Of a stretch of 64,000 bases of DNA, positions 2,634 to 50,615 are shown piece by piece. The stretch is from assembly GCF_002954405.1 (NCBI RefSeq), contig NZ_MQWC01000004.1, positions 1,572,301 to 1,636,300 of the forward strand, read 5' to 3'. This DNA is from Salinibacter sp. 10B. GTDB lineage: Bacteria; Bacteroidota; Rhodothermia; Rhodothermales; Salinibacteraceae. The notes under the pieces were generated by a model. It was given only the letters and a program-made list of their open reading frames with translations, did not search any database and was not told the DNA's origin. The position numbers were made by a program, and so were the translations under genes. Positions within the stretch are counted from its first letter, which is position 1. Every line of letters begins with the position of its first letter.

Positions 2634-5600
2634 TTAGAAGTCCAGCCGCAGGTTCATGCCGAAGCTGCGCGTAGACGGCAGCTGCTGCACCTCAAAGCCC
2701 GGCGTGCGCTGGGCCCCGTTGACCATGGTCGTCTCGGGGTCGATGTGCGGCACGTCGGTCCAGAGGAAGAGATTGCGGCCGACCAGCGAGACCCCGATGT
2801 TCTGGATTCCCGTCTCGCCCAACCAGGACGGCGTGAAGTTGTACTTCAGCGTCATCTCGCGGAGCTTCACGTAGGACGCGTCGAACGAGTTTGCCTCGAC
2901 GTTCGGCCGGGCGTAGTAGCTGCGAAGCCACGTGACGTACTGGGCCGATTCTGTATTCTCCGAGTAGGTGCCGTCCGCGTTCTGCACCACCCCGTCGCCC
3001 GTCACGGTCTCGCCCCGGCAGCAGGTGGTCCCTTCGAGGGTCCCGCCCTCAATGCCGGTAGCGTGGGTGTTGGAGTAGATGAGACCGCCCTGTCGCACGT
3101 CGAAGAGGACGTTGAGATTCAGGTTGTTGTAGCTGAGCGTGGTCCCAATGCCGCCCTGCCAGTCGTGGTTGTAGTTCCCCACCTTCTGCACCTCGTCGGT
3201 CAGCTGCGGCAGCCCGTCCTCGTAAATGATCTCACCGGTGTGCGGGCTGTTCGGGTCTTCGACGCGATCAAAGACGCGGCCGTAGATGTCGCCCATGCGA
3301 CCGCCTTCCCGCGCCTGCACGGACCCGCCGAACGGGCCTTCGCCGAGCACAAACGTGTCGATGCCTTCTGCCAGCTCGACGATCGTGCTCCGGTTGCGCG
3401 CCCAGTTTAGGGAGACGTCCCATCCGAAGCCGCCGATGTTCTCGATCGGCGTCAGCTCCAGGCGCGTCTCCACGCCGGCGTTGCGCACCTCTCCTGCGTT
3501 CAGGAGACGCGTATCATAGCTGGTAGAGCTGGCCAGCGGCACTCGGAGAATCTGATTGCGCGTGCTGCTGCGGTAGTACGTCGCATCGAGCTGGACTCGT
3601 CCCTCGAAGAACCGAAGGTTGGTTCCGACCTCGTAGGAGGACGTAATCTCCGGCTGGAGGTCCGGGTTGGCCAGATCCGACTCCGCAACCACATTCGCCG
3701 TGCTTCCCCACGTCGGCTGAAAGGTATACGTATTGGTGAGGCGGTAGGGCTCCGTGTCGTTTCCGACCTGTGCCCAGCTGGCCCGCACCTTCGCAAAGGA
3801 GAGCGGCAGTGCGTCCGGCACCTCGAACAGATCCGTCGCAATCACACTCAGCGACGCCGACGGGTAGAAGTAGGAATTATTGTCGGACGGCAGGGTGCTC
3901 GACCAGTCGTTGCGGGCCGTCAGGTCGAGAAACACCATGTCTTCGTAGCTGATCGTGCTGGACCCAAAGACCCCGAGGATTTCCTCCTCCTGATTGAATT
4001 CGCTGGTCTGGGGCGACGAGCGAGCATTGCCGATGTTGTAGACGCCCGGCACGCTGAGGGCCTGTGCCGTCAGCTCCACGTTGCGGCGCGTTTGTCGCAT
4101 AAAGTTGGCGCCCACCGACGGCTCCACCGTGAAGGCCCCGAGCTCGCGGGTGTAGTTGAGCAGCACATTGGAGTTCCACTCCAGGAAGTTGCGGTCGGTC
4201 TCCTGCATCCATCCGTTCGGCGCCGTGATGGTGCTGAAGGCCTTCCGCTGCTTGGTGAACTCGTCACTGTAGTCAAGACCGGTGCGGGCCCGCAGGTCAA
4301 GGTTCTCCGTGAAGTCGTAGCGCGCCGTCACGCCGCCGTACAGGCGATCCCGATCCAGACTGTTGGTGTTTTCGTTGACCTGGAAGTAGGGATTGTTCGT
4401 CCAGTTCAGGTCGTAGTGCGCCTGCTGGATGCCCTCCTGTCCTTCCCGCCAGTAGTCGCGAAGTCGGTCCATTTCAACGTCCCGTGCGCCCCACGTGAAG
4501 TAGTACATGATCGACTCCGATCCGTACCCGGAGGTCGGGAGATTGTCGCTGGTCGACTTTGCAAAGTTGGCGTTGGCATCCACCGTCAGGTCCTCGGTGA
4601 TGTCGTAGCTGGCATTGATCGCCGCACTGGTCCGGTCAAGGTCCGTGTTCGGCACAATGCCCGAGCGGTCGCTCCGCGAAAGAGAGGCCCGAAATGAGCC
4701 CTGTTCATTTCCGCCCCGGACGGCCACATTGGTCGTGACGTTCATGCCCGTGTTGAAGAAGTTTCGGACGTTGTTCGGCGCGGAGTCCATCGGCGCCATT
4801 CCACGACGGAACTGGTTCCGCTCAATGCCTTCATCGAGGGGTACGCCCCAGTTCCAGCCCGGAGCACCCGTGCCGTCCACGTAGCTGAATTCGTTGCCGT
4901 TGCCGTAGCTGTACTCGTTCTGGTAGTCCGGCAGTCGCAGCACGCGGTCGGCCATCACCCTCGTGCTCACCGTGGCCCCAATGCCGTCCGTCTCGGAGCC
5001 GTCCTTCGTCTCAATCAGAATGACCCCGTTGGCGGCGCGAGAACCGTAGAGGGCAGCGGCACTCGGCCCCTTCAGCACGCTCATTTCCGCGATGTCGCTC
5101 GGGTTGATCTGGCTCAGACCATTGCCGAAGTCGACCTGGGTGGTCTGAGCGTCGGTGGCCTGCGTGTTTGGCGTATTGTCGATCGGAACCCCGTTCACGA
5201 CGATCAGGGGCCGCCCCGATCCGGTGAGCGAGGACTCTCCGCGAATCGTCACGCGCGGCGAGCTGGCGAGACCGGCCGAGCCCCCAACAACGTTGAGGCC
5301 CGCCACCGTTCCGGAGAGACTGTTCATGACGTTCGTCTCCTGGGCGTCGGCAAGCTCCTGACCCGAGACCCGATCGACGGAGTAACCGAGCGATCGCTCC
5401 TCCCGATCGACCCCGAGCGCCGTCACCACCATCTCATCGAGCCCCACTGCGCCGGAGGTGAGTGTGAAGTCGACGGTGCGCGTCTCTCCGGCCTCCAGTT
5501 GAATGGTACGAGAGGCGTTCTGGTAGCCGACGAACGAAACGACGACCGTGTGCTGCCCCGGCGACACGGCGGTAATCTCGTAGCTTCCGCTTGCATCCGT

Positions 5601-6507: not shown

Positions 6508-9500
6508 ATGCCCGAGCACATCACGATCCGCGGTGCGCGCGAGCACAACCTCCAGAACATCGACCTCGACATTCCGCGCAATCGGCTCGTCGTGATCACC
6601 GGGCTGTCGGGGTCCGGCAAGTCGAGCCTTGCGTTCGACACCATCTTTGCCGAGGGGCAGCGGCGCTACATGGAGAGCCTGAGTGCCTACGCCCGCCAGT
6701 TCCTGGAGATGATGGAGCGGCCCGAGATCGACTACATCGACGGCCTCTCCCCCGTCATCTCCATTGAGCAGAAAACCGTAAGTGGCAACCCGCGCTCCAC
6801 CGTCGGTACCGTCACGGAGGTGTACGACTTCCTGCGCCTGCTCTACGCCCGCGCCGCCACGGCGTACTCCTACGAGACCGGCAACCGGATGCGGCAGCAG
6901 AGCGACGATGAGATCGTGGACGGCATCCTCGACTTTCCCGAGGGCACGCGCCTGCAGATCCTCGCCCCCGTCGTGAAGGCGCGCAAGGGGCATTACCGTG
7001 AGCTCTTCGAGCAAACCTCCGCTCAAGGCTTCGAGCGCTTCCGGGTGGACGGCGAGATGCGCATCTACGAGGAGGGCATGAAGCTGGAGCGCTACGAAAC
7101 GCACGACGTGGAGGTGGTGGTGGACCGGCTCAAGGTGAAGGACGGCATCCGCTCGCGCGTGAGTCAGTCCGTGGAGACCGCGCTGGAGATGGGTGGCGGC
7201 ACGCTCATAGCGAATGTGGTGGACGGCCCCGACGTCGAAACCGGCGACCACCTCTTCAGTCGCCACCTCGTGGACCCCGAGACGGGCCTCTCCTACGAGG
7301 AGCCCTCGCCCAACATGTTCTCGTTCAACACTCCGTACGGCGCGTGCCCCAACTGCGAGGGGTTGGGCACAACGAACGAGATCGACCCGCAGCTCGTCAT
7401 CCCCCATCCTGAGAAGACGATCAATGAAGGGGCCCTCGCACCGCTCGGCAAACCCCGCGACATCTGGATCTTCAACCAACTGGAGGCGGTCGCGGAGGCG
7501 TACGGCTTCGACTTCGACACGCCGATTGAGGACCTGACCGACGAGCAGCGGCGCGTCATCCTCGACGGGGCGGGCGACGAGCAGTTCGACATCACCTACG
7601 GCTATAAGGGCCGCGAGGTGAAGTACAAGCACCGCTTCGGCGGCCTCTACGAGCACATCTGGCACACCTACGAGGAGACGAGCTCCTCCAAGAAACGGCG
7701 ACGGGCGGAGTCGTTCATGCGTGAGATGGACTGTCCCGAGTGCGGCGGGGGGCGCCTCAAACAGGAGAGCCTCCACTACCGCATCGCCGACCAGTCGATC
7801 GCCGACCTGGCGCAGATGGACCTCACCCAGCTGCGCGAGTTCGTGGAGGACGTGCCGTTCGAAACCGAGCGGCAGAAGCGCATCGGCGAACCGATCGTGA
7901 AGGAAGTGCGCGAACGACTCGACTTTCTCGTCGGCGTGGGCGTGGGCTACCTCACGCTCGACCGCCCGGCCCGCACGCTCAGCGGCGGCGAGAGCCAGCG
8001 CATCCGTCTCGCCACACAGGTGGGCACCCAGCTCACCGGCGTCCTCTACGTCCTCGACGAGCCGTCGATCGGCCTGCACCCGCGCGACAACAACCGCCTC
8101 ATCCAGTCCCTAGAGTCGCTGCGGGACCTCGGCAACTCGGTGCTCGTGGTGGAGCACGACCGCGACATGATCGAAGCCGCTGACCACGTGGTCGATCTTG
8201 GCCCCGGTGCCGGCATCCACGGCGGGCACGTCATCACCACCGGCCCGCCCTCCGTGCTGACGGTGGACCCTGCCTCAACGAACGGCCAGGGCAACCCGCA
8301 GGCCCGTTCCGCCGGAACGGCCAATGGAAAAAATACCGAAGCGGGCGATATCGTCATCGAGGACAACGGCGTCGCCCGCGAACAGGTGGCCGAGCGCGCC
8401 GCCGCTTACGACAGCGCGCACTACGACTTCAAGAGCCTGACGGCGGCCTACCTCCAGGGCAAACGCGTCATTCCTCTTCCCAAGAAGCGTCGCGAAGGCA
8501 CGGGGGATTCCATCACCCTGACGGGCGCCACGGGGCACAACCTGAAGGGACAGGAGGTCGACTTTCCGCTTGGCAAATTCATCTGCGTGACGGGCGTCAG
8601 CGGCTCCGGCAAGTCGACGCTCGTGAACCAGACCCTCTTCCCCATCCTCCACCGCGAATACCACGACGCGAAGACGGTGCCCCTTTCCTACGATAGCGTG
8701 GAGGGCCTCGACAACGCCGACAAGGTGATCGAGATCGACCAGCAGCCCATCGGCCGCACGCCGCGCTCCAACGCGGCCACGTACACGAAGCTGATGGATT
8801 ACCTGCGCGACCTCTTCGCCAAGCTGCCGGAGGCAGAGATCCGCGGCTACGACAAGAGCCGCTTCAGCTTCAACACCGATCCCGGCCGCTGCGAGAAGTG
8901 CGGCGGCACCGGCACGGTAACCCTCGAAATGAATTTCCTGCCGGACGTGGACGTCACGTGCGACGAGTGCGACGGCAAGCGCTACGGTCCCGAGACGCTG
9001 GAGGTGGAGTACAAGGGCAAGAATATCGCCGAGGTGCTGGACCTGACCGTCGCGGAGGCGCTCGACTTCTTCGAGAACCAGCCGCGCCTCCTGCGCACGC
9101 TCAAGACGCTCGACGCGGTGGGCCTGGGCTACCTCACGCTCGGCCAGCCGTCCACCACCCTGAGTGGAGGCGAGGCGCAGCGCGTCAAACTGTCCAAGGA
9201 GCTCTCCCGCCCCGGCACGGGCGACACGATCTACATCCTCGACGAGCCGACGACCGGCATGCACTTCGAGGACGTGCGGCACCTGCTCAACGTCCTGCAC
9301 GGCCTGGTGGACGAGGGCAACACGGTGATCGTCATCGAGCACAACATGGACATCATCAAGCAGGCCGATCACCTCATTGACCTCGGCCCGGAGGGCGGGC
9401 GCGAGGGCGGCGAGATTCTGTTTGAGGGGACGCCGGAAGCCCTGGCAGCGGCCGACACGCACACGTCCCACTTCCTGCAGGAGGAACTGGAGCGCACGCA

Positions 9501-47630: not shown

Positions 47631-50615
47631 ATGCCCGAATACACGCTCGAGAAACTCGACGATTATCGATGGCAGCTCCCCAAGCGCGGACGAATGAACG
47701 TCCCCGCCCGCCTCTACGCCAGCGAGCCGATGCTGGAAGACATCCTCGACGACGATGCCCCCCAGCAGGCCATCAACGTGGCCCACATGCCCGGCATCGT
47801 GACGGCCTCGCTCGCGATGCCCGACATTCATTGGGGCTACGGCTTTCCCATTGGCGGTGTGGCTGCGTTCGATCCGGACGACGGGGTGATCTCGCCTGGA
47901 GGAGTGGGCTACGACATCAACTGCCTCTCGGGCGACAGCGAAGTCCTTCACGCCCACGGCTACACGCGCACGATCGCGGAGATGGAGACGACGTGGCAGG
48001 ACGACATTCTCCACTGTCACGACCTTGAGGCATCGTCGAGCGACGAGACGTCCGTAGCCGCATTTTTGAAGCATCAACCCGATCAGCCGGTGTATCGCCT
48101 TCGCACCACCGGCGACGACGAGGTGTTGGCCACTGGCGACCATCCGTTCTGGACGCCCGACGGCATGACCGACCTCGACGATTTGGACCCGGGCGATCAG
48201 ATCGCTCGCCGTCCGTTCGAAGGGGTGCCCTACGACGAGCCGTCCGATCGCATTCTCGTCGACGAGGCTGACGTCCGCAAGGTGCTAAAAGCTCAGGGAA
48301 AGGAAGACGCCGGAAATGCTGTCGGACAAGTGCTCCATTATCTGCAAGAACGGGACCTCCTTCCGCTTCGAGCCTCCGACTCAGCGGTTCCGCACCTCAT
48401 CAAAATCGCCGGCGTTCTGTTCGGGGACGGCACGCTCTACTTCAGCGGCGACCACGAAAAAGGAACCGCGTGGTTTTACGCTGCCCCTGACGATCTGGAG
48501 GCGATTCGCTCCGACGTGGAAGCGGCCGGGTTCACACCCTCTCGCATCTACCGGCGGGAACGGAGCCACAGCGTCGATACGCCCTCCGACCACTACGAAT
48601 TCGAGCGACCCGAGACTTCCTTCAAGGTCGTCAGTACGTCTTTCGCGGCCCTCATGGCGGCATTGGGCGTGCCCGTCGGCGACAAAGCAGCCCAGGACTA
48701 CGGAATTCCCGCATGGCTGCCCGATGCTCCGCTCTGGCATCAACGGCTGTTCCTGGCGCCGCTCTTCGGCGCTGAGCTGTCTGCTCCCTCGACGATGACG
48801 CACTACGGACGCAACTTTTACGCTCCGGCGCTTTCTCTCAGCAAAAGCGACGGGTTTGCAGAGAGCGGCCGGCAGTTCCTTGAGGACCTGGCGTCAATCA
48901 TTGAGGACTTCGGGGTAGAGACGAAGGAGATCACCGAAGTTGCTCCGGAGAATAGTGCCGACGGTCGTGTGCGGCTTCGTCTGTTGCTCTCGTCGCGAAC
49001 GGAATCTATGCTCGCACTGTGGAGCCGGATTGGGTACGACTACAATCAAAAACGGTCGTCGCTCGCGATGGCAGCCGTCGAATACCTCAAGCAAAAACAA
49101 CAGGTCCTTTCCCTGCGAGAGACCGCTGCGGAGCAGGCCCGAATGCGCCATGAGACTGGTACATTCCCTTCTACCATCTACGACGACTTGACGGGTGAAC
49201 ACGTCAACCGCCGGTTTCTGGAGCGGGCGCTTTATGGAGAGCGGAAAACCGGCGTCCGCATTGGATCCTCGTTTCCCACCTTCGACACGTTTTGCGAGGA
49301 CACGCTCGACGGACTGGAGCAAAGCGGAATGGTTTGGTCGACGGTGGACGCAATCGAGCCTGTGAACCTGGAAGCGGAAACAGGAGACCCTCACGTGTAC
49401 GACTTCACTGTCGCGCATGAGGACCACAACTTTGTCGCGGACGGATTCGTCGTTTCGAATTGCGGCGTGCGGCTGATGTCGTCCAAGCTCACGAAGGAGG
49501 ACATCGACAAGCAGGATGCGGAGCGCCTCGTGGATACCCTCTTCCACCGCGTGCCCACAGGCGTGGGCTCCTCCGGTGCTCTGCGCGTCGACCACTCCAC
49601 CCTGCCGCGCGTCCTGCAACGGGGCGCAACGTGGGCCGTGAACCAGGGCTACGGCTCCGAGGCCGACCTCGACGTGATCGAGGAGGGCGGACAGGTCGAC
49701 GGCGCCGATCCGGATGCGGTGTCGAGCCGGGCGAAAGAGCGTGGACTTCCCCAACTCGGCACGCTCGGCTCCGGCAATCACTTTCTGGAAGTCGGGTACG
49801 TGTCGGAGGTGTACAACGAACGAGCGGCCCGCATCATGGGGCTCGACGAAGGCGCCGTCACCGTCATTATCCACTCCGGGAGCCGAGGCTTCGGATACCA
49901 GGTGTGCGACGACGCCCTGCAGGACGTGGACCGGGCCATGAACAAGTACAACATCGAGCTGCCGGACCGGCAGTTGGCCTGTGCCCCCATCGACTCGCCC
50001 GAGGGGCAGAAATATCTCCGCGGGATGCGCTGCGCGATTAACTACGCATTTGCCAATCGGCAGGTGATGGCCCACAACACGCGAGTGGCGTTCGAGGAGG
50101 CGCTCGACCTCTCCCCCCGTGAGCACGGCCTGCACACCGTGTATGAGGTCGCCCACAACATCGCAAAATTCGAGACGCACCGCGTAAACGGACGCAAGCA
50201 GGAGGTGTGTGTGCACCGAAAAGGGGCAACGCGGGCCCTCCCGGCGGGCCACCCGCTCGTGCCGGGCCGCTACCAGCAAGTGGGCCAGCCCGTACTCATC
50301 CCCGGCGACATGGGACGCTACTCGTACGTCCTCGTGGGCACCGACAAAGCCATGGACGAAACGTTCGGCAGCACGTGCCACGGCGCCGGCCGCAAGATGA
50401 GCCGCCGGCAGGCCCGCAAAACAGCGGGGAATCGCAACATTACCGCCGAGCTCGCCAACGAGGGCATCGTCGTCCGTGGCGAAAGCGGCCGCACGGTGCG
50501 AGAAGAGATTCCAGAGGCGTATAAAGATGTCGCCGATGTCGTCGAGGCCGTGGAAGGAGCCGGCCTTTCTCAAAAGGTGGCCCGACTTCGACCGCTCGGT
50601 GTCATCAAAGGCTGA
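47631..50615 (+). CDS. rtcB: RNA-splicing ligase RtcB containing an intein
   Basis: The 994-codon gene encodes a 481-residue RtcB split by a 513-residue intein. The N-extein (residues 1-97) ends SPGGVGYDIN and the C-extein resumes CGVRLMSSKL at residue 611. RtcB joins 2',3'-cyclic phosphate and 5'-OH RNA ends using Mn and GTP. After splicing the metal-binding cysteine is Cys98 and the guanylylated histidine in CHGAGRKMSR is His404, the same numbers as in the well-studied Pyrococcus enzyme. Other active-site text is intact (GNHFLEVGYV, HSGSRGFGYQV). No archease or RtcA gene is nearby. The enzyme needs protein splicing to be active. Confidence 0.97.
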   Translation: MPEYTLEKLDDYRWQLPKRGRMNVPARLYASEPMLEDILDDDAPQQAINVAHMPGIVTASLAMPDIHWGYGFPIGGVAAFDPDDGVISPGGVGYDINCLSGDSEVLHAHGYTRTIAEMETTWQDDILHCHDLEASSSDETSVAAFLKHQPDQPVYRLRTTGDDEVLATGDHPFWTPDGMTDLDDLDPGDQIARRPFEGVPYDEPSDRILVDEADVRKVLKAQGKEDAGNAVGQVLHYLQERDLLPLRASDSAVPHLIKIAGVLFGDGTLYFSGDHEKGTAWFYAAPDDLEAIRSDVEAAGFTPSRIYRRERSHSVDTPSDHYEFERPETSFKVVSTSFAALMAALGVPVGDKAAQDYGIPAWLPDAPLWHQRLFLAPLFGAELSAPSTMTHYGRNFYAPALSLSKSDGFAESGRQFLEDLASIIEDFGVETKEITEVAPENSADGRVRLRLLLSSRTESMLALWSRIGYDYNQKRSSLAMAAVEYLKQKQQVLSLRETAAEQARMRHETGTFPSTIYDDLTGEHVNRRFLERALYGERKTGVRIGSSFPTFDTFCEDTLDGLEQSGMVWSTVDAIEPVNLEAETGDPHVYDFTVAHEDHNFVADGFVVSNCGVRLMSSKLTKEDIDKQDAERLVDTLFHRVPTGVGSSGALRVDHSTLPRVLQRGATWAVNQGYGSEADLDVIEEGGQVDGADPDAVSSRAKERGLPQLGTLGSGNHFLEVGYVSEVYNERAARIMGLDEGAVTVIIHSGSRGFGYQVCDDALQDVDRAMNKYNIELPDRQLACAPIDSPEGQKYLRGMRCAINYAFANRQVMAHNTRVAFEEALDLSPREHGLHTVYEVAHNIAKFETHRVNGRKQEVCVHRKGATRALPAGHPLVPGRYQQVGQPVLIPGDMGRYSYVLVGTDKAMDETFGSTCHGAGRKMSRRQARKTAGNRNITAELANEGIVVRGESGRTVREEIPEAYKDVADVVEAVEGAGLSQKVARLRPLGVIKG
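47922..49460 (+). other. Intein with LAGLIDADG-type homing endonuclease inside rtcB
   Basis: The insertion occupies residues 98-610. It starts with a Cys nucleophile (CLSGDSEVLH, block A), has the block B TxxH (Thr168-His171 in ATGDHPFW), and ends with block F VYDFTVAHEDHNFVADGF and block G VVSN followed by Cys611. Two LAGLIDADG-like helices, IAGVLFGDGTL (about 259-269) and RLFLAPLFGAELS (about 371-383), indicate a homing endonuclease. The penultimate residue is Ser instead of the usual His. The insertion point splits the metal-ligand loop of RtcB, a known intein site. Splicing and endonuclease activity are inferred. Confidence 0.93.

Follow-up and report, generated by a model that had tools for sequence, protein, structure and literature searches.

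The RtcB protein of Pyrococcus horikoshii (PH1602) carries an intein whose splice junction lies at Cys98 (PMC4150793, in part), and its spliced form is available as a solved structure (1uc2). The metal ligands of this RtcB are Asp95, Cys98, His203, His234 and His329; both Mn ions are bound by Cys98, and oxidation of Cys98 is tied to loss of activity (sections of PMC10630183). The roles of intein blocks A, B, F and G and of the nucleophiles at positions 1 and +1 have also been described (sections of PMC7765530). The locus considered here is rtcB1 of Salinibacter sp. 10B, a probably salt-loving member of the Bacteroidota, within a window of 64,000 nucleotides (contig NZ_MQWC01000004.1, positions 1,572,301 to 1,636,300); window features are given in window positions and lie on the forward (+) strand. 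This gene is interrupted at the same site as that of P. horikoshii, the comparison of the two inteins being one of site. The insert is very probably a class 1 intein of full length, placed immediately before the codon of the catalytic Cys, whose LAGLIDADG endonuclease appears intact and which splices, homes and has been both acquired and lost through recombination.

The rtcB1 precursor is encoded by a single open reading frame (47631..50615) of 994 codons and a stop codon (50613-50615). Its product matches the NCBIfam family NF038162 ("intein-containing RtcB family protein") at 1243.1 bits (cut-off 1150) over model positions 2-961 of 961. Alignment to solved RtcBs delimits an N-extein of 97 residues ending in SPGGVGYDIN (47631..47921), and alignment to 1uc2 identifies the first residue (Cys+1) of the 384-residue C-extein (49461..50612) as the metal-ligand Cys98 of RtcB. 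When residues 1-97 and 611-994 are joined a protein of 481 residues results; both this length and the coordinates given in the original prediction proved exact. The prediction had named a failure of the extein parts to align as one continuous RtcB as grounds for rejecting it. Instead, they align over their whole length with solved RtcBs (2epg, E-value 6.7e-168; 1uc2, E-value 8.7e-158), the halves joining at YDIN|CGVRL with the break directly preceding Cys98, and every metal ligand listed above for P. horikoshii is present in the spliced extein as aligned with 1uc2. A chance or frameshift artefact is ruled out by the single open frame, the presence of both RtcB halves and the scores of curated families above their cut-offs. 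The observation is thus confirmed as real and well outside chance.

The intein itself comprises 513 residues (47922..49460), beginning with CLSGD and ending with FVVSN, and its limits follow from intein families and from an alignment of 20 full-length inteins at the same site: three from the window's genus, three from a second family of the order (f11), six from a Chloroflexota sample, seven from a Planctomycetota sample and one from a haloarchaeal plasmid. Taken alone, the 513 residues score 51.1 bits against Pfam Intein_splicing (cut-off 35.8), 38.8 bits against TIGR01445 (cut-off 24.5), 26.3 bits against TIGR01443 (cut-off 15.6) and 433.3 bits against NF038162. Block A (47922..47960), matched by TIGR01445, holds the Cys1 nucleophile; block B (VLATGDHPFWTPDG, 48123..48164) holds T71 and H74; block F (VYDFTVAHEDHNFV, 49395..49436), matched by TIGR01443, holds D494 and H502; and block G (ADGFVVSN, 49437..49460) closes with the terminal Asn, N513, preceded by Ser in place of His. 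All six of these residues (C1, T71, H74, D494, H502 and N513) are unchanged in 20 of 20 aligned inteins. The window's intein therefore has the features of class 1, namely nucleophiles at C1 and C+1, the block B Thr/His, the block F Asp/His and the terminal Asn. An AlphaFold2 model built from 19 rows, with the Natrinema (haloarchaeal) row omitted, has a mean predicted local distance difference test score (pLDDT) of 91.9 and a predicted template modelling score (pTM) of 0.90. In this model the two ends of the intein form a predicted HINT domain, which superposes on the Ssp DnaB mini-intein (6frg) with Z 21.8 over 148 residues at 3.3 Å and on 1mi8 with Z 21.7 over 136 residues at 1.5 Å.

The centre of the intein is predicted to be a LAGLIDADG homing-endonuclease domain (intein residues 153-460, the range of the structural match; 48378..49301). 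No LAGLIDADG domain was matched by Pfam on the 513-residue sequence; residues 153-460 of the model superpose on the LAGLIDADG enzyme E-DreI with Z 15.9 over 203 residues at 2.7 Å. In enzymes of this type one acid closes each motif. Motif 1 (block C, IAGVLFGDGT, 48405..48434) includes LFGDGT with the catalytic acid D169, and motif 2 (block E, LFLAPLFGAELS, 48747..48782) includes LFGAEL with E285, an acid being found at each of the two positions in 19 of the 20 inteins; the window's intein thus combines the LAGLIDADG fold with an acid at both motifs. The ratio of nonsynonymous to synonymous divergence (dN/dS) for residues 111-470, a central region made up mostly of the endonuclease, is 0.09-0.12 in three pairs of carriers, compared with 0.04-0.10 for the extein in the same pairs. 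These low values indicate that the endonuclease is not decaying, and it appears to be under purifying selection. Family scores, alignment and model together bear out the original prediction of an intein at the catalytic Cys with blocks A, B, F and G and two LAGLIDADG-like motifs. One other member of the alignment (L101, in genome G642) is the only row of 20 that has lost the two endonuclease acids, and it retains the splicing residues that were checked; it is read as the decay stage of the homing cycle.

The anatomy of the insert, its predicted fold, its conservation and its presence/absence alleles are what the analysis shows, and from them we infer splicing, cutting and homing of the window's intein. 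The 994-residue precursor would be translated, Cys1 would attack the bond after Asn97, and the N-extein would pass to Cys+1, the future metal ligand Cys98. Asn513 would then cyclise and the exteins would join, yielding a 481-residue RtcB and a free endonuclease of 513 residues. This endonuclease would cut intein-free rtcB alleles at the conserved site, the repair of which would copy the intein in; purifying selection would hold the element, and recombination among related bacteria would bring both gain and loss.

Some RtcB is found in 26 of 27 genomes of the family, and RtcB1, defined as a gene with at least 69% extein identity to that of the window, in 12, of which only three carry the intein (the window's genome G000, G013 and G020). 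Eight of the 13 genomes of the genus have RtcB1, and three of these eight carry the intein; RtcB1 is missing from the other five congeners, four of which are 99% complete, so that the gene is dispensable in the genus. The exteins of the carriers do not form one clade, such a clade being rejected by the approximately unbiased (AU) test (p 0.00026). Furthermore, G013, which has the intein, and G014, which has none, share neighbouring genes on both sides of rtcB, with 90.8% identity upstream, 98.1% downstream and 95.3% across the C-extein. Their exteins are 94.5% identical in DNA, and, substitutions aside, the sole difference between the two rtcB genes is a precise insertion at the site. Sporadic carriers, a syntenic intein-free allele and exteins that are not a clade are together what would be expected of a mobile intein that recombination between related bacteria both inserts and removes. 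Strict vertical inheritance, the other outcome that would have told against the original prediction, is at odds with the rejected clade and the syntenic intein-free allele: inheritance has not been simply vertical. G013 and G014 offer a clean presence/absence pair in which gain, loss and cost are open to study between close relatives. One of the five intein-free congener copies of RtcB1 (L042, in G017) is decayed; at about 7540-7565 of that locus 17 residues are missing shortly before the intein site, which reads DVNCGAR there, and the deletion could conceivably have been left by imperfect repair where the endonuclease cuts.

Three points weigh against a class 1 intein that homes. First, a penultimate His is usual in inteins, with active exceptions, and in the window's intein this residue is Ser; the Ser is nevertheless common to 13 of the 20 family members, the seven with His being the Planctomycetota rows, and the penultimate His of block G is taken here as typical rather than defining for class 1. 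Second, homing was not caught in the act, as synonymous divergence (dS) of the intein is similar to that of the extein in all three carrier pairs (intein/extein 0.64/0.75 for G000-G020, 1.01/0.73 for G000-G013 and 1.11/0.72 for G020-G013). A recent transfer between any of the three carriers in the genus is thus unsupported, intein dS being about equal to extein dS or higher, and the intein either dates back at least to the separation of these lineages or was acquired from lineages outside the sample. Third, G013 and G014 are unusually divergent in the tract just before the site, where they differ at 198 of 1114 aligned sites, compared with 163 of 2999 in the region beyond it on the upstream side and 90 of 4968 on the downstream side. 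This tract abuts the site, but the best breakpoint lies 295 nt upstream of the insertion, so there is no clean co-conversion footprint, and the tract is only suggestive of a trace of homing or of loss by conversion.

The consequence of the insertion for the host depends on what other RtcB the cell possesses. The second RtcB of the window's genome (G000:C4:2929548-2930840) is intein-free, 44% identical to the extein and lacks the catalytic Cys; its residue at the Cys98 position is Thr, and GSGNHF is replaced by GGGEHF. An RtcB of its score class is present in 13 of 13 genomes of the genus. Among 18 loci other than RtcB1 the site was read in 11 (seven of them from the genus), giving Thr in six, Ala in four and Val in one; among the seven not read there, a more distant RtcB of another genus (L025, in G024) has Cys. 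In this second copy (L002) and ten further second-copy loci, Thr, Ala or Val replaces the catalytic Cys and Glu replaces the conserved Asn (GGGEHF); from these sequences the paralogues are possibly a different enzyme. The intein-bearing copy is the only RtcB with a canonical site found in the window's genome, and, because Thr occupies the Cys98 position in the other, splicing should be needed for canonical ligase activity. This would leave room for splicing-dependent control. The intein might accordingly be the host's switch on RNA repair, spliced conditionally in response to salt, redox state or temperature, a proposal consistent with an insert that splits the enzyme at its metal-ligand Cys, with the strong acidity of the intein (net charge -41 versus -10 for the extein), which fits a high-salt cytoplasm, and with the existence of conditional inteins in RadA (parts of PMC5790916) and DnaB (parts of PMC6195587). 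However, the intein is missing from five of the eight congeners with RtcB1, which argues against a conserved regulatory role, the four nearly complete congeners noted above do without RtcB1 entirely, and no feature specific to regulation was found in the analysis, making such a switch quite improbable. As for the genes nearby, rtcB1 of G013 is immediately preceded by genes for archease and a Uma2-type protein, and archease adjoins rtcB in Natrinema; in the window's genome archease is located elsewhere.

Beyond the family, full-length members were found in six of the 244 genomes from the window's class (the window's genome included), 6 of 400 in the Chloroflexota sample and 7 of 392 in the Planctomycetota sample, and one of 14 control genomes scored above the NF038162 cut-off. 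RtcB inteins are therefore present in three bacterial phyla, Bacteroidota, Chloroflexota and Planctomycetota, and one haloarchaeal member was found on a plasmid of Natrinema. The view that RtcB inteins come chiefly from archaea, with which the analysis began, does not agree with these mostly bacterial carriers, but the genomes sampled were bacterial and do not show the reverse either. Carriage by phages was not apparent, the intein having no match in 50,697 phage records and a scan of IMG/VR returning 13 loci with partial matches only, none longer than 260 residues. Two loci of the Chloroflexota sample (L102 in G540 and L103 in G269) have an intein-type match, over model positions 53-381, inside an NAD-epimerase-like open reading frame (GGAGFIGCNLAD...); as partial matches in another gene they were omitted from the alignment.

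Family f11 (G193, G194 and G196) carries the intein at the same site as the window's family, and the exteins of the two families form one clade in the extein tree (100/99). Both observations would be expected if the intein had simply descended from the order's ancestor and later been lost in some lineages, and a joint clade of their inteins is not rejected by the AU test (p 0.074, or 0.096 when Natrinema is left out). The two families are, however, not sisters in the best intein trees. The window's intein is also closer to those of two Chloroflexota (G244 and G256; 48% identity) than to those of f11 (42-44%), yet its extein is far closer to f11 (67%) than to the same Chloroflexota (52 and 55%). 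Thus, vertical descent with losses is an unlikely explanation for the origin of the intein, and transfer at some depth is probable.

Cross-domain transfer, raised by the original prediction, can be assessed only through the Natrinema plasmid. Its intein groups with those of the genus (92/93), and does so still under two recodings that damp the acidic bias (99.6/78 and 94.7/75, Shimodaira-Hasegawa-like approximate likelihood ratio test/bootstrap); the two inteins are similarly acidic (-40 in Natrinema, as against the value given above for the window). There is also published precedent in the sharing of a Salinibacter polB intein with haloarchaea (sections of PMC4071816). Within a common hypersaline habitat, the lineage may therefore have received its intein from a haloarchaeon or passed its own to one. 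Against this, Natrinema is the single archaeal row, its composition is flagged and its branch is the longest (1.39), and its identity to the window's intein (38%) is lower than that of the nearest Chloroflexota, so that any such transfer would be ancient. The grouping with Natrinema stands at reduced bootstrap once recoded, its sole archaeal member being a long and biased branch; exchange with haloarchaea is hinted at, in a suggestive way only, and as the source of the intein it is doubtful. Nonetheless, exchange from halophile to halophile gains a testable case.

The survey of related loci outside the window also yielded candidate selenocysteine-containing RtcBs, a by-product that may matter more than the window's intein. 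In a genome of the Planctomycetota sample (L105, G645:C319) an in-frame TGA occupies locus bases 3031-3033, the codon of Cys+1 and hence of the catalytic Cys, in an RtcB bearing an intein of the window's family. Apart from this TGA the frame, intein-VVHN-TGA-GVRLL-C-extein, is free of stops, and the TGA is followed by a hairpin resembling a selenocysteine insertion sequence (SECIS), with its loop about 20 nt downstream. An intein-free RtcB (L124/L132, G915:C305:145-1452) likewise has TGA at the catalytic Cys codon, with a hairpin at the same spacing as in L105, and PF01139 reads through this gene across a single TGA. Among 35 distinct post-codon sequences (33 with Cys, two with TGA) the TGA ones rank first and third for a SECIS-like hairpin. 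SelB scores above cut-off in both G645 and G915, but it does so in 9 of 14 genomes tested in all and is thus common there.

Several results weigh against selenocysteine. When synonymous codons were redrawn, hairpins as good arose in 182 of 5000 draws for L105 and 1240 of 5000 for L124 (80 of 5000 for L035, described below), so that those of the TGA genes are only weakly unusual, and six other RtcBs from the order of G915 retain Cys with no TGA. The contig that holds the rtcB of G915 is only 3,807 bases long. No tRNA-Sec was found in the 48,638 bases examined, a small part of the G645 and G915 genomes, and no selA among the genes scanned beside selB (three in L143, three in L142). A TGA-pattern scan of 392 genomes of the phylum, designed for intein-free genes and thus unable to match G645, gave two matches, one RtcB (that of G915) and one due to chance, compared with three in the reversed control; a viral match of the pattern was not an RtcB. 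On balance, the evidence slightly favours replacement of the catalytic Cys of RtcB by selenocysteine, which in G645 would at the same time replace the +1 nucleophile of an intein of the window's family. Selenocysteine has been placed artificially at Cys98 of RtcB (PMC4150793, in part). No natural selenocysteine RtcB came to light in the literature found on RtcB together with selenoproteins or selenocysteine. If the candidates are genuine, selenium would replace an oxidation-prone thiol both of the ligase site and of the splicing junction, a new selenoprotein family would be added as far as that literature goes, and in G645 a naturally occurring intein would have to splice onto selenocysteine.

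Two further observations were made in the same survey. A Cys-coding RtcB of the same phylum (L035, in G245, from 4528) ranks second in the hairpin comparison; its SECIS-like hairpin is strong and equally far from the codon, and it may be the fossil SECIS of a former selenocysteine codon; fossil SECIS elements have been reported in other families (sections of PMC1794560). In G645 a Hen1-type RNA-repair methyltransferase (L142, 8953-10395; PF12623, 363 bits) lies a few kb from selB.

Comparison with described systems places the window's intein among these elements at several levels. That NF038162 exists shows the family to be already known to annotators; the window's protein matches it over its full length, with no difference in architecture seen. 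In the portions available of the literature found on RtcB inteins, Salinibacter inteins and inteins with homing endonucleases in RNA ligases, none treats this intein in this group. Inteins in polB of Salinibacter, shared with Halobacteria (PMC4071816, in part), concern related halophiles but another gene, and the term RtcB does not occur in the main text of that paper. The RtcB intein on the Natrinema thermotolerans plasmid (CP031304.1, QCC61297.1) occupies the same site, has full-length HINT and homing-endonuclease parts and is acidic, but it is plasmid-borne, differs at most positions (38% identity, as above) and has archease directly upstream. PI-PfuI (1dq3), PI-PkoII (2cw7) and the Tli and Pho VMA inteins share the layout of HINT and LAGLIDADG domains but reside in other host genes and sites, with 12-20% identity in structural alignments. 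Spliced P. horikoshii RtcB (1uc2), with which the window's extein aligns, has its junction at the equivalent Cys. The intein of Salinibacter sp. 10B is thus a mobile element of a known type, and a well-preserved example of it in the most conserved site of the enzyme.

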